Assembly: GCF_016863295.1 (NCBI RefSeq)
Contig: NZ_BOOP01000021.1
Coordinates: 1-64,000 of the forward strand
DNA from: Planotetraspora phitsanulokensis
Lineage (GTDB): Bacteria; Actinomycetota; Actinomycetes; Streptosporangiales; Streptosporangiaceae
DNA: 64,000 nucleotides
Direction: 5' to 3'
The notes under the pieces were generated by a model. The model made no database searches, had not been told where the DNA came from, and saw nothing but the letters and a program-made list of their open reading frames with translations. The position numbers and the translations under genes are program-made. Positions 1,663 through 57,654 of this stretch are shown piece by piece. Position 1 is the stretch's first letter, and every line of letters starts with the position of its first letter.

Positions 1663-2580
1663 CTAGGTGGGGGATGTCCGGCCGTCGATCAGATGGCCGA
1701 AGCTCGGATCTTCGATATCTCGTACGGCCTGCGCGAACTTGTCGGCGGCCTCCGCGCTGTAGTCGAGGCCGGGGAACGCCTGGTCGCGGACCAGGCCCTG
1801 GTGGACGACGAACCACAACGTCCAGGTGAGGTTGGACATGATCAGGTTCAGCCGCACTCGCGCGACCTGGTCGTCATCGCCGAAGTAGGCGCGCGTGAGC
1901 CGTACGACCTGGTCGGGGTCGAAGTCGGACTCCGCGGCGATGTCGCCGAGCTCGAAGCAGGGGTCGTTGTTGCCGGACAGCTGGTAGTCGATGATGCGGA
2001 CGTCCGGCCCCGTGGCGATCAGGTTCTCGGCGAGCAGGTCGTTGTGGCACGGGACGGCCGGCAACGGACGCGCGTCGAGGGCGGCCTCGATGTCGACCAC
2101 GACGGGCAGCACGTCCTCGTATCCCGCGGGGAGACGCAGCCCTCGGGTACGGCATCGCTCCACCAGCTCGTCGAGCTTGCGGAAGATGGAGAAGTCGTTC
2201 ACGAAGGGCGGTCCGGCGTGGAGCCGCCGGCAGGCCGCCGCCACCTTCTCGATCATCGCGGGGGTGCGCACCGCGGGAGCGTCGAGCGTGACGCCGTCGA
2301 GGTATTCGAGGACCATCGCGCCGGGCATCACGTGCAGGACTCGAGCGCCGATCCCGGTGGAGGCGGCGTGGAGTGTGTTCGCGATCTCCTGGTCCAGGGG
2401 GATGCCCAGTCCGGCCGCTGCGATCGAGGGGTTCAGGACGCGAAGGAGCCAGCGTTCGCCGTCCTCGGTCTCCAGCCGGGAGATGTGGTGGCTCAGTCCG
2501 CCTTTGATCGTCGTGGAGGTGACCGGCCGACCGGCCCAGGCCGTGACGAGCTCCAGTGCGTCCTCGACGGCATCTGGCAT
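1663..2580 (-). CDS. Choline/ethanolamine kinase-like phosphotransferase (APH fold)
   Basis: A 305-residue soluble protein of the aminoglycoside phosphotransferase/choline kinase fold. The catalytic Brenner motif is visible as PCHNDLLAENLI near residue 197, followed by the metal-binding IIDYQLSGNNDPCFELGD segment; the wording around this Asp is closer to choline kinases than to antibiotic kinases. It probably phosphorylates a small alcohol or amine with ATP. I start it at the ATG at 2580, preceded by AGGAG; the open frame continues upstream but the extension has no family similarity. It is the first gene of a two-gene minus-strand operon with the permease, and diverges from the FAD/GcvT enzyme. 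Choline is the best guess for substrate. Confidence 0.8.
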   Translation of the reverse strand: MPDAVEDALELVTAWAGRPVTSTTIKGGLSHHISRLETEDGERWLLRVLNPSIAAAGLGIPLDQEIANTLHAASTGIGARVLHVMPGAMVLEYLDGVTLDAPAVRTPAMIEKVAAACRRLHAGPPFVNDFSIFRKLDELVERCRTRGLRLPAGYEDVLPVVVDIEAALDARPLPAVPCHNDLLAENLIATGPDVRIIDYQLSGNNDPCFELGDIAAESDFDPDQVVRLTRAYFGDDDQVARVRLNLIMSNLTWTLWFVVHQGLVRDQAFPGLDYSAEAADKFAQAVRDIEDPSFGHLIDGRTSPT

Positions 2581-2593
2581 GCCCGGCTCCTTT

Positions 2594-2611
2594 TGGTCTA
2601 CCTTCAGACCA
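2594..2611. promoter_or_regulatory. Inverted repeat in the divergent promoter region, candidate GntR-type operator
   Basis: TGGTCT (2594-2599) and AGACCA (2606-2611) are perfect complements around a 6-nt spacer, in the 72-nt gap between the divergent kinase and dehydrogenase genes. The half site TGGTCT is common in GntR-family operators of actinobacteria. No GntR gene lies next to it, so the binding protein is unknown. Confidence 0.45.
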
Positions 2612-2652
2612 TTGATCCGATTGTGCGGGCCAGGTGTTACAGGAAGGTTCCG

Positions 2653-5193
2653 ATGTCGCAACTTCCCGCCGACGCACAGGTCGTCGTCATCGGTGGTGGC
2701 GTGGCCGGATGCAGCGTGGCCTACCATCTCGCCCGGCTCGGTTGGACGGACGTGATCCTGGTCGAGCGGCATGACCTGACCGAGGGCACGACCTGGCACT
2801 CCGCCGGTTTCGTCGGGCAACTCCGGTCGACGGTGACGCAGACCCGCATGATCATGTACTCGGCCGGCCTCTACCCCGAGTTGCGGGAGCTGACCGGGCT
2901 CGATCCGGGCTGGCACGGCGTCGGCGGGTTGCGACTCGCGACGACCCCCGAACGGCAGGAGGAGCTCCTGCGGCAGGCGGGCGCCGCCGAGACATACGGC
3001 CTCGACATGGAGATGCTCGACGCCGCGCGGACTCTTGAGCGTTTTCCCGCCATGGAGGTCGGAGACGTCCGGGGGTCGTTGTGGCTCCCCGGCGACGGCT
3101 GGCTCGATCCCGCAAGGCTGGGCCGGGCGCTCGCCGAAGGCGCCAGGAAGCTCGGGGTCAAGATCTTCACCGGGGTCGAAGTAGCCGGTGTGGAGGTCGA
3201 GGACGGTCGGGTGCGCGCCGTACGGCTCCGCGCCGCGGCCACGGGTTCAGGGGACGACGAGTGGGTCGTCCGGACGGAGACCGTGGTCAACGCGGCGGGC
3301 GCGGCGGCCGGAGCGGTGGGACGCCTCGCGGGCGTCGACGTGCCGATCGTGCCGATCAAGCACCAGTACGTGGTGACGAAGCCCATGGGCGTCCCGGCCG
3401 ATACGCCGACCGTGCGCGACCCGGACAACATCGTGTATTTCAGGGAGGACGGCGGCGGGATCCTCGTCGGGGGATACATCCGCACGCCTCAGGTCTGGGA
3501 CGTCGATCGCCCACTCGCCGAGCCGCGGACGCTCTTCGCCCCAGATATGCCGAAATTTCAGGAGTCGTGGGAGTCGGCCGTCCACCGGCTGCCGGGCCAC
3601 CTCGCCCAGATCAGCGCCCAGATCGGCGCGGGCGCCCAGGCTGATCCAGAAACGGCGTTCCGGAAGGTGGTCCACGGGCCGGAGGCGTTCACGCCGGATG
3701 GCGAGTTCCTCCTGGGTGAGACGGGCGTCCGGGGTTTCTGGGTCGCCGCCGGGTTCTGCGTCCACGGCCTGGCGGCGGCGGGCGGCGTGGGCAAGGTCAT
3801 GGCCGAGTGGATCGTCGACGGCAGCCCGGAGTACGACGTCTTCGGCATGGACGTCCGCCGGTTCGGCGCCCACGCGCGCTCGGCCAGATGGGCGCGGGAG
3901 AAGGCGCTCGATTCCTACAGCAAGTACTACGACATCGTGTATCCCGGCGAGGAGCGCACCGCCGCCCGGCCACTCCGCCGCTCGCCCGCGTGGGTACGGC
4001 ATGTGGAGCTTGACGCGGCCTTCGGGGAGAAGGCCGGCTGGGAGCGGGTCAACTGGTTCGGCGTGACAGCGCCGTCCAGCAGGTCGTCCGGCAGGTCGTC
4101 CGACAGGTCGTCCAGCGACGCGTCCGGCGACACGCGAGGGCCGGGGCCGAGAGGCTGGGCGGGCAGGGCATGGTCACCCGCGATCCGTGAGGAGTGCCTG
4201 GCGACCGAGAGCGCCGCCGGACTGTTCGACCAGACGTCCTTCTCGAAGCTGGAGGTCTCGGGCAAGAACGCCCTGGCCGACCTGGAGCGGGCCTGCGGCA
4301 ACGGCCTCGACCGGCCTGTCGGCACGGTCGTCTACACCCAGGTGCTCAACGAGCGCGGCGGCATCGACGCGGACGTCACCGTGACGAGACTCGCCGAGGA
4401 CCGGTTCAGGGTGGTCACCGGCACGGCCTTCGGCGTCCACGACGCCGAGATCCTGCGCCGGCACGGCCTGGAGGTCAGGGACGTCACCTCCGCCTACGCC
4501 TGTTACTGCCTGTGGGGGCCCCGGGCGTACGACATCCTGAGCGCGTTGAGCGACGACGACCTGACCTTCGGATACATGCGGGCCAGGGAGATCAGCGTCG
4601 GTCACGTCCCGGTGCTGGCCCAGCGGGTGACCTTCGTCGGCGAGTTCGGCTGGGAGCTCTACTGCCCGGCCGAGTTCGGCCTGACGCTCTGGGACGCGCT
4701 CATGGAGGCCGGCCTGCCGTACGGCATGCGTCCGGCGGGCTATCGCGCCCTCGACTCGATGCGGCTGGAGAAGGGGTACCGGATCTGGGGGCTTGACATC
4801 ACCCCCGAGACGACACCGCTCGAAGCCGGGCTCGGCTTCGCCGTACGGCCGGAACGGCGGGCGGCTCTTCCCGAGCCGCGTCAGACGTTGCGCTGCCTGG
4901 TGGTCGACGACGAGCGTGAGGTCTGCCTGGGCGGCGAGCCGGTACGGCTGGGCGGCCGGCCCGTGTCCCGCGTCACCAGCGGGGGGTACGGCTGCCGCGT
5001 CGGCCGGTCGATCGCCTACGCGTACCTGCCGGTCGGCGTCGCGGACGCCGCGGATGCCACAGAAGTCATGACGGAGACGCGTGTGGAGATCGGCGTGAAC
5101 GGCGGCTGGGTCGGCGCGCGGATCGTCGCGGAGCCCCTCTACGACCCCGGCCTCGACCGGGTCAGAAGCACGCCCTGGACCTCACGGAGGTAG
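2653..5193 (+). CDS. FAD-dependent dimethylglycine/sarcosine dehydrogenase-like enzyme with GcvT domains
   Basis: An 846-residue enzyme. Residues 1-370 are a DAO-type oxidoreductase with the dinucleotide motif VVVIGGGVAGCSVAYHL at residues 9-25 and the TTWHSAG segment that is conserved near the flavin in this family. An FAO_M-like linker follows, then GcvT (about 460-740, GWAGRAWSPAI onward) and GcvT C-terminal (about 750-840) folate-binding domains. Family members demethylate dimethylglycine or sarcosine and pass the one-carbon unit to tetrahydrofolate. The ATG at 2653 has AGGAAG seven nt upstream; the long open frame before it is spurious. A Ser/Arg/Asp-rich insert (about residues 475-490) comes from a 12-bp DNA repeat. 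The 3' end overlaps the convergent PfkB gene by 12 nt. Exact substrate uncertain. Confidence 0.85.
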   Translation: MSQLPADAQVVVIGGGVAGCSVAYHLARLGWTDVILVERHDLTEGTTWHSAGFVGQLRSTVTQTRMIMYSAGLYPELRELTGLDPGWHGVGGLRLATTPERQEELLRQAGAAETYGLDMEMLDAARTLERFPAMEVGDVRGSLWLPGDGWLDPARLGRALAEGARKLGVKIFTGVEVAGVEVEDGRVRAVRLRAAATGSGDDEWVVRTETVVNAAGAAAGAVGRLAGVDVPIVPIKHQYVVTKPMGVPADTPTVRDPDNIVYFREDGGGILVGGYIRTPQVWDVDRPLAEPRTLFAPDMPKFQESWESAVHRLPGHLAQISAQIGAGAQADPETAFRKVVHGPEAFTPDGEFLLGETGVRGFWVAAGFCVHGLAAAGGVGKVMAEWIVDGSPEYDVFGMDVRRFGAHARSARWAREKALDSYSKYYDIVYPGEERTAARPLRRSPAWVRHVELDAAFGEKAGWERVNWFGVTAPSSRSSGRSSDRSSSDASGDTRGPGPRGWAGRAWSPAIREECLATESAAGLFDQTSFSKLEVSGKNALADLERACGNGLDRPVGTVVYTQVLNERGGIDADVTVTRLAEDRFRVVTGTAFGVHDAEILRRHGLEVRDVTSAYACYCLWGPRAYDILSALSDDDLTFGYMRAREISVGHVPVLAQRVTFVGEFGWELYCPAEFGLTLWDALMEAGLPYGMRPAGYRALDSMRLEKGYRIWGLDITPETTPLEAGLGFAVRPERRAALPEPRQTLRCLVVDDEREVCLGGEPVRLGGRPVSRVTSGGYGCRVGRSIAYAYLPVGVADAADATEVMTETRVEIGVNGGWVGARIVAEPLYDPGLDRVRSTPWTSRR
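4081..4116 (+). repeat. Three tandem 12-bp repeats inside the dehydrogenase gene
   Basis: AGGTCGTCCGGC, AGGTCGTCCGAC and AGGTCGTCCAGC follow each other directly and encode an SSGR/SSDR/SSS-like stretch between the FAD and GcvT halves. It is in frame, so it only lengthens the interdomain linker. Confidence 0.8.
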
Positions 5194-6060
5194 CTCGCCC
5201 CGAGTGGGCAGCCCCTGCCATGAGCCGTGGCCGGCCACGGCGTACGCGGCGAGCGAGATGCCCCGCTTCAGCCGGTCGGCGGGGTGGAGGTCGTCGAGGA
5301 GGGCGCTGAGATATCCCGCGACGAAGGCGCCGCCGACACCGGTGGCGTCGACGGCCGTCACCGGCGCCGCCTGGGTGTCGTAGCGAAGACCGTCGACCGT
5401 CGCGCTCGCCCCTTTGGCCCCACGGGTCACGATCAGCTCGGGAACGCCCGCCAGAGCAGGTTCGACGAGCGGCAGCTCGTCCTGGCTGGCGAACAGGATG
5501 TCGGCGGAGGAGGCCAGCTCGGTCAGCGCCTGCCGTGCCTCGTCGGCGCTCTCCCAGAGATGCGGCCGGTGATTGACGTCGACGGAGACGAGCACCCCGG
5601 CGTCGCGCGCCAGCTTGACCGCGTGGTGCACGGCGCTCCATGCGTATCCGCTGAGCGCCAGGGTGATGCCGGTGATGTGCAGGACGCGCGCCGCCTGAAC
5701 GGCCTCGGCGGGGACGTCGCCCGTGGACAGGCGCGACCCCGCGGAGCCGCTCTGGTAGTAGACCTCGTGCGACAGACGGCCGATCCGCCGCTGCCGGATC
5801 ACGATGCCGGTGGGGGCGGTCTCGTCGACTCGGGCGTGTGAGACGTCCACGCCCTCGCCGCGCAGAACGCTCAGCGTGCGCGCACCCAGTTCGTCGATGC
5901 TCACCCGGCCGAGCCAGGCGACCTGATGACCGAGCCGCGCGAGACCGACGGACACCGTCAGCTCTGGGCCCTCGACGTCCAGACGGGCTGTCATGTCGTG
6001 TCGTATCCGGTCGGCCGAGACGACGCCGAGCGCCTCTCCGAGCGTGAACACCTCGGTCAT
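5182..6060 (-). CDS. PfkB-family sugar kinase homologue lacking the catalytic Asp
   Basis: A 292-residue ribokinase/PfkB-fold protein, closest in layout to 2-keto-3-deoxygluconate kinases: an N-terminal TLGEALG segment, SVGLARLGHQVAWLGRV, SVDVNHRPHLW and a C-terminal helix. The signature that normally reads DxxGAGDxF is here DATGVGGAF, so the catalytic base Asp is Gly (codon GGC). The anion-hole Gly pair is kept. The paralogue at 38521 has the intact DLVGAGDAF. The protein may therefore be inactive or only bind sugar. It is convergent with the dehydrogenase gene and overlaps it by 12 nt. Start ATG at 6060. Confidence 0.8.
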   Translation of the reverse strand: MTEVFTLGEALGVVSADRIRHDMTARLDVEGPELTVSVGLARLGHQVAWLGRVSIDELGARTLSVLRGEGVDVSHARVDETAPTGIVIRQRRIGRLSHEVYYQSGSAGSRLSTGDVPAEAVQAARVLHITGITLALSGYAWSAVHHAVKLARDAGVLVSVDVNHRPHLWESADEARQALTELASSADILFASQDELPLVEPALAGVPELIVTRGAKGASATVDGLRYDTQAAPVTAVDATGVGGAFVAGYLSALLDDLHPADRLKRGISLAAYAVAGHGSWQGLPTRGELPP

Positions 6061-6169: not shown

Positions 6170-6718
6170 TCACTCGCTGAACGCGTCGAGGGCCGCCTGG
6201 CAGAACGCCTTGAGATCGTCGGGCTTTCTGCTGGTCACGAGCGTGTTCGGGCCGTCCGTGTCGATCATGACCTCCTGGTCGACCCACTCCGCCCCGGCGT
6301 TGCGCAGGTCCGTCTGCAGGCTCGGCCACGACGTCAGCGTACGGCCGCGTACGACGTCGGCCTCGATGAGCGTCCACGGCGCGTGACAGATGGCCGCCAC
6401 CGGCTTGCCGTTCTCGAAGAAGCCCTTCGCGAACCGGACGGCCTTCGGCTCGGTGCGCAACATGTCCGGGTTGGCCACGCCGCCCGGCAGGACCAGCCCG
6501 TCGAACTCCGCGGCGGACACGTCGTCGACGGTCATGTCGACCGGGAAGGTATCCGCCTTGTCCAGGTGGTTGAACGCCTGGACCCGGCCAGGCCGGATGG
6601 ACACCAGCCGGGGTGTTCCGCCCGCCAGTTCGACCGCCCTCCACGGCTCGGACAGCTCGACCTGCTCGACTCCCTCGGGAGCGACCAGAAACGCGATCGT
6701 CTTCCCACGGATCATCAT
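6170..6718 (-). CDS. DJ-1/PfpI-family protein (type 1 glutamine amidotransferase-like)
   Basis: A 182-residue cytoplasmic protein of the DJ-1/PfpI superfamily. The nucleophile elbow AICHAPW places Cys111 followed by His112, and Glu18 or Glu21 in the GVEQVELSEP stretch is in the place of the conserved acidic residue. LVLPGG at about 76-80 forms the oxyanion region. Members include general stress protein 18, glyoxalase III/deglycase and intracellular proteases; YhbO/PfpI-like subgroups act in stress protection. A GAGAGGGG ribosome site precedes the start; the second Met (MIRGKT) is an equally good start. It stands alone between the PfkB gene and the divergent DUF72 gene. Confidence 0.85.
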   Translation of the reverse strand: MMIRGKTIAFLVAPEGVEQVELSEPWRAVELAGGTPRLVSIRPGRVQAFNHLDKADTFPVDMTVDDVSAAEFDGLVLPGGVANPDMLRTEPKAVRFAKGFFENGKPVAAICHAPWTLIEADVVRGRTLTSWPSLQTDLRNAGAEWVDQEVMIDTDGPNTLVTSRKPDDLKAFCQAALDAFSE

Positions 6719-55903: not shown

Positions 55904-56635
55904 GTGACCAAGCTCAACCAGATCCTCGCCGTGGAAAAGGGCGTCAAGGCCGACGCCCAGCGCAAGGTGACCGACGCCTACCACACCATCCAGAAGAGCC
56001 CGCTGCTGTCGGGCATCTCGCGGTCGTACCAGCCGATCGACGACGAGGGCGAGCAGCTTCCGCCCGAGTCGACCAGGGTGCAGGTGCAGGCCGGCAACGT
56101 GCTCGGGGACGTGGGAGCCGCGCTGACGCGGTTGTTCGACGTGACGGCGACGAAGGACTGGGCGAACTGCTCGGCGAAGGCCAGCGTCACGGTGGACGGC
56201 GAGACTCTCCTGACCGATGTCCCGGTCACCTACCTGCTGTTCCTGGAGAAGCAGTTGGTCGACCTGCACACGTTCATAAGCAAGCTGCCCACGCTGGACC
56301 CGTCCGAGACGTGGACGCTCGACGAGAACACCGACACCTGGCGCACGGAGCCGGTGAAGACGACGCGGACGAAGAAGGTTCCGCGCAACCACGTGCTCGC
56401 CGAGGCGACCGACAAGCACCCTGCCCAGGTTCAGGTCTACAACGAGGACGTCGTCGTCGGTTACTGGACCAAGGTCACCTTTTCCGGCGCGTTGCCGCAG
56501 CGGCGTGTCAACGAGCTGCTGGGCAGGGTGCAGAAGCTCCAGGACGCGGTGAAGTACGCCCGTGAGGAGGCCAACGGCACGGAGGTCGTCGACCGCAGGA
56601 TCGGTGACGCCGTGTTCGGCTACCTGCTGAGGTAG
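55904..56635 (+). CDS. Conserved protein of unknown function, next to permuted tRNA-like RNAs
   Basis: A 243-residue soluble protein without signal peptide or membrane segment. Distinct parts: KLNQILAVEKGVKADAQRKV at the N-terminus, a basic/acidic middle with PESTRVQVQAGNVL, LFDVTATKDWANC near residue 80, TYLLFLEKQLVDLHTFISKL near 112, a Lys/Arg stretch TRTKKVPRNHVLAEATDKHP near 155, and a helical C-terminus VNELLGRVQKLQDAVKYAREEAN. Very similar proteins exist in other actinobacteria and some proteobacteria (recollection, not searched). The basic TRTKKVPRNH stretch could bind RNA. The gene ends 66 nt before the first of two tRNA-like RNAs, with no promoter between, so protein and RNA probably work together. 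Confidence 0.75.
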   Translation: MTKLNQILAVEKGVKADAQRKVTDAYHTIQKSPLLSGISRSYQPIDDEGEQLPPESTRVQVQAGNVLGDVGAALTRLFDVTATKDWANCSAKASVTVDGETLLTDVPVTYLLFLEKQLVDLHTFISKLPTLDPSETWTLDENTDTWRTEPVKTTRTKKVPRNHVLAEATDKHPAQVQVYNEDVVVGYWTKVTFSGALPQRRVNELLGRVQKLQDAVKYAREEANGTEVVDRRIGDAVFGYLLR

Positions 56636-56646
56636 CCCCACAGACC

Positions 56647-56666
56647 CCCATCCCTGCGTGGATGGG
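56647..56666 (+). other. Hairpin between the protein gene and the first tRNA-like RNA
   Basis: CCCATCC (56647-56653) and GGATGGG (56660-56666) form a 7-bp stem with a 6-nt loop, 11 nt past the stop codon. It could be a processing signal or partial terminator. The 5' side belongs to a 10-mer (ACAGACCCCC, 56640-56649) that recurs at 56981. Confidence 0.6.
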
Positions 56667-56701
56667 TGCGCAAGGAGCGCAAGCTGAAGATGAAGCTCAG
56701 C

Positions 56702-56785
56702 CTGAACGACGGTGACAGCGGAGGTTCGATTCCTCTCCCGGGCACGCGGGCCCGGGTAGCCCAACTGGTAGAGGCAGCCGTTCAG
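56702..56785 (+). ncRNA. Permuted tRNA-like RNA 1 (Y-RNA-like)
   Basis: The parts of a tRNA occur in circularly permuted order. T arm: stem GGAGG/CCTCT, loop TTCGATT (56720-56736). The 3' acceptor strand CCCGGGC (56737-56743) follows at once, then a 6-nt linker ACGCGG, then the 5' acceptor strand GCCCGGG (56750-56756), a perfect 7-bp match. TA at positions 8-9 and a D arm with GG in its loop (56759-56775) come next. The two ends (CTGAA-CGA-CGGT, 56702-56713, and GCCGTTCAG, 56777-56785) pair over nine bp with a 3-nt CGA bulge, in place of an anticodon arm. GCTGAA at 56683 and TTCAGC at 56806 could add an outer helix. This is the fold of tRNA-mimic bacterial Y RNAs. Confidence 0.75.
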
Positions 56786-56836
56786 ACTCAGACTCTCGCT
56801 CCAGATTCAGCATCGCCGTCGAGTGCCGGATCGACC

Positions 56837-56945
56837 GGGAGTGGACTGTGATTGTTGAGATGCCGGTTCGAGTCCGGCGCGCGGCTCCAACCATGCCGCG
56901 GTAGCTCAATGGCAGAGCGCACATCGTGAGGACTGATCCACTCTC
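56837..56945 (+). ncRNA. Permuted tRNA-like RNA 2 (Y-RNA-like)
   Basis: Same permuted plan as its neighbour, 51 nt further on. T arm GCCGG-TTCGAGT-CCGGC (56862-56878, perfect); 3' acceptor strand GCGCGGC (56879-56885) with TCCA directly after it, like a discriminator base plus CCA; linker ACCAT; 5' acceptor strand GCCGCGG (56895-56901), six of seven pairs; TA; D arm GCTC-AATGGCA-GAGC (56904-56918). The ends pair as TGTG/CACA (56847-56850 with 56920-56923) and GGGAGTGGA/TCCACTCTC (56837-56845 with 56937-56945), with a 13-nt internal loop. The variable region is long (11 nt). Read in normal order neither RNA can form a tRNA. Confidence 0.72.
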
Positions 56946-56983
56946 TTAAACGCCGCCGGCGCCGTGATGTGGCGGCACTGACA

Positions 56984-57016
56984 GACCCCCGGGACATGGA
57001 CAGGTTCCCGGGGGTC
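56984..57016 (+). terminator. Terminator of the tRNA-like RNA operon
   Basis: GACCCCCGGGA (56984-56994) and TCCCGGGGGTC (57006-57016) form a perfect 11-bp stem with an 11-nt loop, about 40 nt after the second RNA. A weaker GCCGCC/GGCGGC hairpin (56952-56976) lies before it. Confidence 0.82.
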
Positions 57017-57045
57017 GCTCCATTTCGTGCACGCTTCCGCTGCTG

Positions 57046-57059
57046 TCTCATATATGAGA
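57046..57059. promoter_or_regulatory. Palindromic operator A of the XRE-cupin gene
   Basis: TCTCATATATGAGA is a perfect 14-bp palindrome. Its centre is 20 bp from that of operator B, so two dimers would bind on the same face of the helix. Confidence 0.75.
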
Positions 57060-57064
57060 TAGCG

Positions 57065-57080
57065 TCTCTCATGTGAGAGA
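57065..57080. promoter_or_regulatory. Palindromic operator B, overlapping the start codon
   Basis: TCTCTCATGTGAGAGA is a 7-2-7 palindrome with perfect arms. It covers the GTG start at 57073 and shares the TCTCA/TGAGA half site with operator A. A TAGCGT hexamer (57060-57065) seven nt before the start suggests a leaderless transcript that begins within this operator. Confidence 0.75.
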
Positions 57081-57654
57081 TGAAGTCGCGCCGCACGACG
57101 CGCAGGTGGAGGTCCGTCTGGCGGGCCGGCTCGCGTGGTTGCGGGAGGAGCGCGGCTGGTCCCTGGACGAGCTGGCGCGGCGGACGGGCGTGAGCCGTTC
57201 GACGTTGTCGCGGCTGGAGCGGACGGAGATCAGCCCGACCGCGACCCTGCTCAACAGGTTGTGCGCGGCGTACGGCCGGACGATGTCGCAGTTGCTGGCC
57301 GAGGTCGAGGAGGAGCCGCCGCGACTGGTGCGCGCCGGTCAGCAGATGGTGTGGCGGGACGAGAGCTCGGGGTTCACCCGCCGCTCGGTCTCCCCGCCGC
57401 ACCCCGGACTGCGTGGTGAGCTGGTCGAGGGGCTGCTGCGGCCGGGTGCGGACATTTCCTACGACGAACCGCCCGTGCCGGGTCTGGAGCAGCACATCTG
57501 GATGCTGGAGGGCGTGCTCGAGGTCACCGTGGGCGACGTCGTGCACGAGATCCGGGCGGGGGACTGCCTGCGGTTCCGGCTGTGGGACCGGTCGCGCTTC
57601 CGCTGCCCCGGTCCCGATCCGGCCCGTTACGCCTTGATGATCGTCCTGCCGTGA
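57073..57654 (+). CDS. XRE-family regulator with C-terminal cupin domain
   Basis: A 193-residue regulator. N-terminal XRE helix-turn-helix (about 14-70): RLAWLREERGWSLDELARRTGVSRSTLSRLERTEISPTATLLNRLC. C-terminal cupin (about 105-190): PGLEQHIWMLEGVLEVTVGDVVHEIRAGDCLRFRL. Such proteins bind a small ligand in the cupin barrel. GTG start inside a palindrome points to autorepression. The GNAT acetyltransferase gene follows by 12 nt and is likely its regulated partner. Confidence 0.86.
   Translation: MRDEVAPHDAQVEVRLAGRLAWLREERGWSLDELARRTGVSRSTLSRLERTEISPTATLLNRLCAAYGRTMSQLLAEVEEEPPRLVRAGQQMVWRDESSGFTRRSVSPPHPGLRGELVEGLLRPGADISYDEPPVPGLEQHIWMLEGVLEVTVGDVVHEIRAGDCLRFRLWDRSRFRCPGPDPARYALMIVLP

Follow-up and report, generated by a model that had tools for sequence, protein, structure and literature searches.

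The window analyzed here, the whole stretch of 64,000 nt, contains on its forward strand a gene for a DUF7873 protein, followed by a compact series of RNA-like features that ends in a terminator-like hairpin (Table 1). The initial annotation had placed circularly permuted tRNA-like modules at 56640–57016. Two such modules are present at these positions, and the order of the tRNA halves, with the T arm and the 3′ acceptor strand preceding the 5′ acceptor strand and the D arm, was read correctly, as were the acceptor pairings of seven out of seven across a 6-nt linker (module 1) and six out of seven across TCCAACCAT (module 2).

Table 1. Positions of the DUF7873 gene and of the features assigned to the downstream RNA.
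Feature	Position in window	Strand	Remarks
DUF7873 gene (PF25283)	55904–56635	+	243 aa; candidate protein partner of the RNA
GC-rich 5′ hairpin, U tract absent	56647–56666	+	RNA start as drawn; sequence and MFE fold
P_A 5′ strand GGAGCG	56674–56679	+	partner 56797–56802 (CGCTCC)
Hexamer array ARNYTN, four units, one off-pattern	56681–56707	+	single-stranded in the model; candidate protein-binding site
Module 1 anticodon-stem-equivalent 3′ strand	56709–56713	+	partner 56777–56781
Module 1 T arm	56720–56736	+	covariation
Module 1 acceptor hairpin (3′ strand, linker, 5′ strand)	56737–56756	+	
Module 1 acceptor strands	CCCGGGC 56737–56743; GCCCGGG 56750–56756	+	7/7 pairs; 6-nt linker ACGCGG 56744–56749
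Module 1 D arm, 3-bp stem	56757–56775	+	
Hexamer pattern, second part	56784–56812	+	encloses P_A 3′ strand 56797–56802
P_D 5′ strand	56823–56829	+	partner 56956–56962
Internal-loop motif ATCGACC, conserved	56830–56836	+	faces TTAAACG 56946–56952; alignment A5
P_C 5′ strand	56837–56845	+	partner 56937–56945
Module 2 anticodon-stem-equivalent 3′ strand	56850–56855	+	partner 56921–56925, bulged
Module 2 T arm	56862–56878	+	covariation
Module 2 acceptor hairpin	56879–56901	+	linker TCCAACCAT
Module 2 acceptor strands	GCGCGGC 56879–56885; GCCGCGG 56895–56901	+	6/7 pairs; linker TCCAACCAT 56886–56894
Module 2 D arm, 4-bp stem	56902–56918	+	
P_C 3′ strand, TTAAACG motif, P_D 3′ strand	56937–56962	+	
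Terminal hairpin, terminator-like	56985–57016	+	sequence

ARAGORN found zero tRNA genes on the 64-kb window, and no Rfam model reached its gathering threshold there, so that assignment to a known RNA family gained no support at that level. The likeness to Y RNAs that had been suggested for the modules returned in a covariance search: a permissive Rfam run over 56300–57300 gave YrlA as the best match, but with 30.3 bits for module 2 and 22.5 bits for module 1 it stays well below the gathering score of 69. The Rfam tmRNA models gave no match in this region under the same permissive conditions, nor at gathering level in the window. Look-alikes of the GC-rich 5′ hairpin were noticed by eye, without statistics, in some other loci, and 61 of 107 loci have a GGAYA motif 40–150 nt 3′ of their second D arm (a raw count). 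Further downstream, palindrome-like repeats (TCTCATATATGAGA and TCTCTCATGTGAGAGA) occupy window positions 57046–57082, and an ORF for an HTH-cupin regulator starts at 57073; the repeats are a possible operator.

The protein is assigned to Pfam family PF25283, which is of unknown function, with 395.5 bits (E = 1.3e-118, cut-off 27), and its closest relative among the matches listed is from Planotetraspora mira (97%). An AlphaFold2 model built with 90 sequences (pLDDT 93.6, pTM 0.69) is composed of long helices and a long β hairpin, and 16 columns are invariant among 90 sequences. Foldseek comparison of the model with the PDB and BFVD yielded no match at E ≤ 0.001, a PDB sequence search gave nothing significant (best E 0.057), PHROGs placed the protein in no family, and a catalytic signature was not recognized in it. 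A match to the NCBIfam Pol III psi model (17.4 bits, cut-off 150.55) was taken as chance. Since the fold has no significant match, RNA binding by DUF7873 would be assigned through guilt by association. In open-licence literature, with bioRxiv outside the scope, the word DUF7873 was absent, and the RNA was not described among the matches listed.

Linkage of the RNA to DUF7873 and its distribution

A covariance model of module 2, called R1, was run on 150 genomes of the host's family. DUF7873 was called in 49 of these, but the matches in G318 and G347 are partial (about 21 bits each) and exceed the cut-off only with neighboring pieces, so these two genomes were set aside. This leaves 47 genuine carriers, three of them with broken copies of the gene (G267, G293 and G313). 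R1 reached at least 64 bits in 48 of the 150 genomes, over the full model span in 46 and nearly so in G355 and G394. The RNA lies 73–258 nt downstream of DUF7873, on the same contig and strand, in all 47 carriers, and it was detected in only one of the 103 genomes without a genuine DUF7873 gene, as a broken remnant in G309. Gene and RNA are decaying together in G293. The remnant in G309 (L193, around 2500–4300) is cut in the second D arm by what appears from its ORFs to be an IS200/IS605-like element, and DUF7873 is gone.

The distribution in a phylum-wide sample is patchy, with DUF7873 in 6 of 246 genomes. Among 14 control genomes, Deinobacterium chartae was the sole carrier of DUF7873 and the sole carrier of TROVE. 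The protein is encoded in 73 of 50,697 phage records and has relatives in 4 of 72,556 plasmid records; the pair was also seen in a Streptomyces plasmid (L054). For comparative work a set of 177 loci was assembled, consisting of the window, 80 genome loci (the best 80 of 432 DUF7873-encoding places in genome contigs), 83 viral-contig loci (9, plus 80 of 164, 6 of these overlapping) and 13 phage loci, with several near-duplicates. Of the 96 loci from viral contigs and phages, 90 were scanned with R1; 77 gave a full-length match of at least 47 bits, 12 of these 77 having served to build the model. The remaining 13 mostly show weaker matches, with none near the gene in L131 and L150. The R1 match is antisense in L092 and upstream of the gene in L152. 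The Rhizobium and Vibrio phage loci have a single module, with R1 scores of 35 and 16 bits. The similarity that had been noted in one genome is thus part of a wide conservation in actinobacteria and phages.

Conservation within 3 kb is limited to DUF7873 and the RNA. Other ORF clusters (≥90 aa) recur in at most 7 of 80 genome loci and at most 9 of 90 loci from viral contigs and phages, two clusters that overlap the RNA itself being exempted. Annotated tRNA genes are present in 10 of the 13 phage stretches inspected, in five cases as dense clusters (L098, L099, L101, L179 and L181); the three cyanobacterial phage stretches have none. The tRNA cluster of Gordonia phage Phendrix (L098, 1572–2100) also contains an Rfam tmRNA match of 89 bits that is unlisted in the feature table. 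Klebsiella phage FBKp24 (L183, 4302–4597) has a promoter annotated just 3′ of DUF7873, and a 'tRNA-Sup-TTA' annotated inside its permuted RNA is probably a mis-annotation. A HEARO RNA and a following ORF (4450–5961) are situated between DUF7873 and a weak RNA match (35.8 bits, 6302–6425) in Microcoleus phage L103, as would be expected after insertion of an IscB-type element.

Modules were counted in the 177 loci with a finder that seeks a T arm, a 3′ acceptor strand, a linker of 3–69 nt, a 5′ acceptor strand and a D arm, and that demands at least six of seven acceptor pairs and a D stem of at least 3 bp. Two modules were present in 118 loci and three in 2; 42 loci had a single module and 15 had none. 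The double head is therefore not universal, a module being missing or undetected in the latter 42 and 15 loci. The 600-nt stretches upstream gave one module in 6 of 177 cases and none in 171, the antisense strands one module in 4 of 177, and dinucleotide-preserving shuffles none in 177. Over the 64-kb window the finder reported four matches on the plus strand, including the two modules described above, and one on the minus strand. In view of these few stray matches a lone match may be due to chance, but a pair adjoining DUF7873 is not. In L064, L069 and L093 module 1 has seemingly been lost and the hexamer arrays are still close together, which suggests that module 1 is dispensable.

The hexamer array is the other recurrent feature. 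Three strict ARNYTN units were found downstream of the gene in 64 of 177 loci, compared to 4 of 177 upstream stretches and none of 177 coding regions or shuffles. Two units occur in 37 of the 42 one-module loci and 10 of the 15 no-module loci, a count that is only suggestive because controls also show two units (40 of 177 upstream stretches, 21 of 177 shuffles). Pairing between the two parts of the array, sought by eye in several loci, was inconsistent. In frame, the array would encode mostly K/R/S/N alternating with mostly L/F/M. A conserved start was not found in this frame (ATG or GTG in frame within 60 nt upstream in 53 of 104 arrays), nor was a conserved stop, in-frame stops being scattered. 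The absence of a conserved start or stop argues against the array as a coding tag. We infer that it is a candidate binding site for DUF7873.

Enclosing helices and covariation

Pairing was analyzed in a set of 117 two-module loci, of which 107 were left after removal of duplicates. Each of the seven positions of the module 1 acceptor is paired in 106–107 of the 107 unique loci (shuffled maxima 69–97), and each position of the module 2 acceptor in 105–107, with 99.2% of the cells paired in alignment A5. Since the finder itself requires six of seven pairs, the evidence lies in the variety of pair types (GC, CG, AT and others) relative to column shuffles. Acceptor strands of different modules mostly fit each other less well, with seven pairs in 4 and 5 of 107 loci, six in 17 and 19, and mostly four to five, from which it follows that each head is closed on itself. 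The D stem has 3 and not 4 bp in module 1 (116 of 117 two-module loci) and 4 bp in module 2 in 104 of 117 loci, with 3 bp in the other 13.

Two alignments of 37 sequences each were made from 40 loci, chosen after passing over loci with long linkers; the divergent L102, L170 and L171 were omitted. In alignment A5, which covers P_C, P_D and the stems of module 2, 96.0% of the cells are paired and 31 of 33 pairs display two-sided changes, with a covariation of 0.637 compared to 0.205 after shuffling and 0.125–0.138 after sliding. Module 2 sits on the 9-bp helix P_C and P_C on P_D, with the motifs ATCGACY and TTAAACG between them. Two-sided changes occur at all nine pairs of P_C (92.1% of cells paired), and pairing amounts to 97.9% for the inner four pairs of P_D and 88.6% for the anticodon-like stem of module 2 in the MAFFT register. 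The signal of module 1 in alignment A4 is less strong but still clear, with 92.3% of the cells paired and a covariation of 0.335, against 0.133 when shuffled. Its weak spots are an invariant D stem, and an anticodon-like stem and P_A that are poorly aligned or partly unpaired (85.8% of cells for P_A). RNAalifold, applied to A4 alone, recovered the acceptor, T and D stems only, and a local hairpin that competes with P_A was seen by eye in some loci.

The enclosing helices were also examined by an alignment-free permutation test, in which the strands of a locus are matched with each other or with those of other loci in 2000 permutations; relatedness of the loci inflates the resulting Z scores. 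P_C and P_D, for which 83 of the 107 loci with a TTAAA-like anchor could be used, scored 20.6 and 15.2. The anticodon-like stems of modules 2 and 1 scored 14.7 and 10.3 (107 loci each), and P_A scored 9.2 with 98 loci. With all loci pooled, none of the 2000 permutations reached the own value for any of these five helices. For P_A the viral loci alone gave 5.5 (32 loci) and the genomes alone 3.6 (66 loci; 2 of 2000 permutations as high). The anticodon-like stem of module 1 was likewise weak in the genomes alone (Z 3.4; 1 of 2000 as high).

Covariation among homologous loci, which the initial annotation had named as a means to judge the modules, is thus strong in the helices. Together with the module controls it rules out chance folding or decayed tRNA genes, and we regard it as almost certain that a real, conserved structured RNA is encoded. 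The modules had been described as two tandem RNAs. There are indeed two modules, but the helices that enclose them make it more likely that both are part of one RNA of about 370 nt than that they represent separate molecules. What sequence comparison establishes is the predicted fold, the conservation of that fold, and a nearly perfect linkage of the RNA to DUF7873.

Acceptor tails, Ro60 and possible functions

The linkers between the acceptor strands resemble the 3′ tails of tRNA genes. Position 73 is A in 92 of 107 loci for module 1 and T in 89 of 107 for module 2. The next position is C74 in 196 of 214 modules, and the complete CCA is present in 65 of 214, about 30%. Ordinary tRNA genes of the host have N73–C74 in 50 of 50 cases and CCA in 14 of 50 (30 of 57 places, repeats included), and for ordinary tRNAs in the viral loci the numbers are 280 of 312 for C74 and 78 of 312 for CCA. 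For the Ro60-linked Y RNA modules C74 was found in 19 of 28 and CCA in 2 of 28, at least 2 of the 28 being doubtful. Fisher tests, in which shared ancestry is uncorrected, gave lower frequencies in the Y RNAs than in the modules (p = 0.007 for CCA, 0.001 for C74) and no difference in CCA between the modules and viral tRNAs (p = 0.19). Loops of 4 nt or less were found in ten of 28 Ro60-linked modules versus 5 of 214 DUF7873 modules, a comparison in which the linker ranges searched (2–11 nt for Y RNAs, 3–69 nt for the modules) favor short Y RNA loops. Several Y RNA linkers also start with N–C. Tails like those of tRNA genes suggest that the acceptor ends are under the selection that acts on the 3′ ends of real tRNAs, and hence that RNase P and CCA finishing are involved. 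Whether the acceptor ends are processed like tRNA is, to judge from these tails, a matter of evenly balanced probabilities. Precedent for acceptor-end processing into pieces is provided by two-piece tmRNA (PMC3978253).

The statement that no Ro60 or RtcB gene is present holds for the window, which lies on contig C21, but not for the genome as a whole. The host has a sole TROVE match on contig C11 (50.1 bits, 527-residue ORF), and RtcB is encoded at two places, on C42 and C3. The Ro60/TROVE gene on C11 (L002, 150–700) is preceded by two YrlA-like RNAs with 45.4 and 27.5 bits that are separate from the DUF7873 RNA. In the family TROVE is found in 68 of 150 genomes and is positively associated with DUF7873 (33 of 47 carriers, 35 of 103 others); 14 of the 47 genomes that carry DUF7873 and the RNA, mostly draft assemblies, have no TROVE match. 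A Ro60 system in disguise was rejected, because Ro60 is located elsewhere in the genome and was not found in every genome. Weaker R1 matches elsewhere often span model positions 44–100, the tRNA-like part; many of these adjoin TROVE and others correspond to module 1. Of 20 TROVE-adjacent stretches that were fetched, the module-free L234 was omitted. YrlA was called by Rfam in the 19 others and in L002 with 28.7–53.9 bits, all below 69. Since the Ro60-linked Y RNAs of this family also score below 69, a sub-threshold score does not by itself exclude Y RNA membership. The DUF7873 RNAs score lower with YrlA (22–38 bits), and 3 of 10 loci scanned reach an E-value of 0.01 (32.7–36.9 bits, with more sequence per search).

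In view of the above, we propose that DUF7873 and the two-headed, permuted tRNA-like RNA of about 370 nt form a ribonucleoprotein of which the acceptor ends are matured like those of tRNA. Taken as a whole, we give this proposal an even chance. The ribonucleoprotein itself is quite probable, given the conserved linkage. In this proposal the RNA would be bound by DUF7873, possibly at the hexamer array, which is single-stranded in the model. Each head would represent a tRNA elbow with acceptor (T loop TTCRA, D loop GG) that could be recognized by tRNA-handling enzymes. RNase P and 3′ processing would cleave the linkers, CCA finishing would follow, and the acceptor helices would hold the resulting pieces together in the manner of two-piece tmRNA. 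The target of such a particle would be tRNA or translation. Such a role is slightly favored by the tRNA-like tails and by the location within tRNA clusters in some of the phages.

A serious rival, possible although we lean against it, is an adaptor resembling Y RNA, in which the heads remain closed and uncut and the tRNA mimic attaches a nuclease or a tRNA-modifying enzyme to DUF7873 or, in trans, to Ro60. Such an arrangement exists in Deinococcus, where a Y RNA tethers Rsr to PNPase (PMC7790460). It would be in agreement with YrlA as best Rfam match at scores below a threshold that the Y RNAs of the family likewise do not reach, with the closed hairpins that the acceptors form in the gene, and with the more frequent occurrence of Ro60 in DUF7873 genomes. 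However, the adaptor has to be reconciled with the carriers that have no TROVE match, with the Y RNAs that Ro60 loci already possess, and with tails that are like those of tRNA genes and unlike Y RNA loops. It is quite improbable that the RNA is a decoy or regulator that either shields the tRNAs of phage or host from an enzyme attacking tRNA or inhibits an enzyme of tRNA processing. The dense tRNA clusters around 5 of the 13 phage loci inspected would suit this role, and competitive inhibition has been suggested by others for YrlA (PMC7790460), but there is no anticodon loop that could be bait for anticodon nucleases.

Maturation through a circular intermediate into working tRNAs, as in permuted tRNA genes of the algal type, is extremely unlikely. 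We know of no bulge-helix-bulge splicing in bacteria, which counts against it, and the two-module architecture offers no anticodon loop because its outer ends enter P_A or the covarying P_C and P_D. The order of the halves and the tRNA-like tails would be compatible with such genes, which are known from six algal species and one archaeon (PMC3978253). Very improbable is also a tmRNA-like RNA with a short tag of Lys-Leu repeats encoded by the hexamer array. Full D arms, which the DUF7873 RNA has, are not known from tmRNA, and neither a conserved start codon nor anything but scattered in-frame stops was seen; the alternation of residues in the array frame would fit a tag, as would the order of the halves in permuted tmRNA genes (PMC3978253). 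Carried further, the proposed ribonucleoprotein could be related to tmRNA but two-headed. Two chargeable acceptors would be freed by RNase P and CCA finishing, and DUF7873 would hand the aminoacylated three-piece RNA, a double tRNA mimic, to the ribosome or a different partner in translation, both in bacteria and in phages that carry tRNA genes. We consider this extension unlikely.

Comparison with known systems

The RNA–protein pair appears to be undescribed in open-licence literature without bioRxiv. It occurs in actinobacterial chromosomes, a Streptomyces plasmid and phages of several host phyla, and it provides a Pfam family of unknown function with a candidate RNA partner. Should its ends be processed and charged, the RNA would represent a new kind of two-headed tRNA-like molecule.

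The order of the tRNA halves around an acceptor linker is shared with the circularly permuted tRNA genes of algae and an archaeon, so that this part of the earlier comparison stands. The missing anticodon, the outer ends that participate in other, covarying helices, and the bacterial and phage hosts set the RNA apart from these genes. In permuted, two-piece tmRNA the 3′ acceptor strand also comes first and a CCA-like tail lies in the spacer. The replacement of the anticodon arm by a long helix is common to tmRNA and the DUF7873 RNA, and one Klebsiella phage locus gave a weak beta_tmRNA match of 24.8 bits. However, two-piece tmRNA differs from the DUF7873 RNA, which has two heads, full D arms and no conserved tag reading frame that could be found.

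The closest likeness noted at the outset, that to bacterial Y RNA (YrlA, RF02553), applies to the module, which contains a T arm, a closed acceptor stem and a D arm in permuted order. Both RNAs adjoin a protein gene, and several of the Ro60 loci examined contain multiple copies of Y RNA. The likeness does not extend to the partner, size, outer architecture or tails. Judged by its proposed partner, DUF7873 instead of a TROVE protein such as Ro60, the RNA falls outside the Y RNAs, and 14 of 47 genomes have no TROVE match. With about 370 nt, including the array, P_A, P_C and P_D, it is also unlike the 114-position YrlA model, and its N73–C74(–CCA) tails are those of tRNA genes. The pair departs from each known kind that it resembles in a defining feature, with one module in common with Y RNAs. 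Ro60 Y RNAs and DUF7873 RNAs, often co-resident and built on this common module but with a different partner and different ends, thus constitute a natural experiment on tRNA mimicry.
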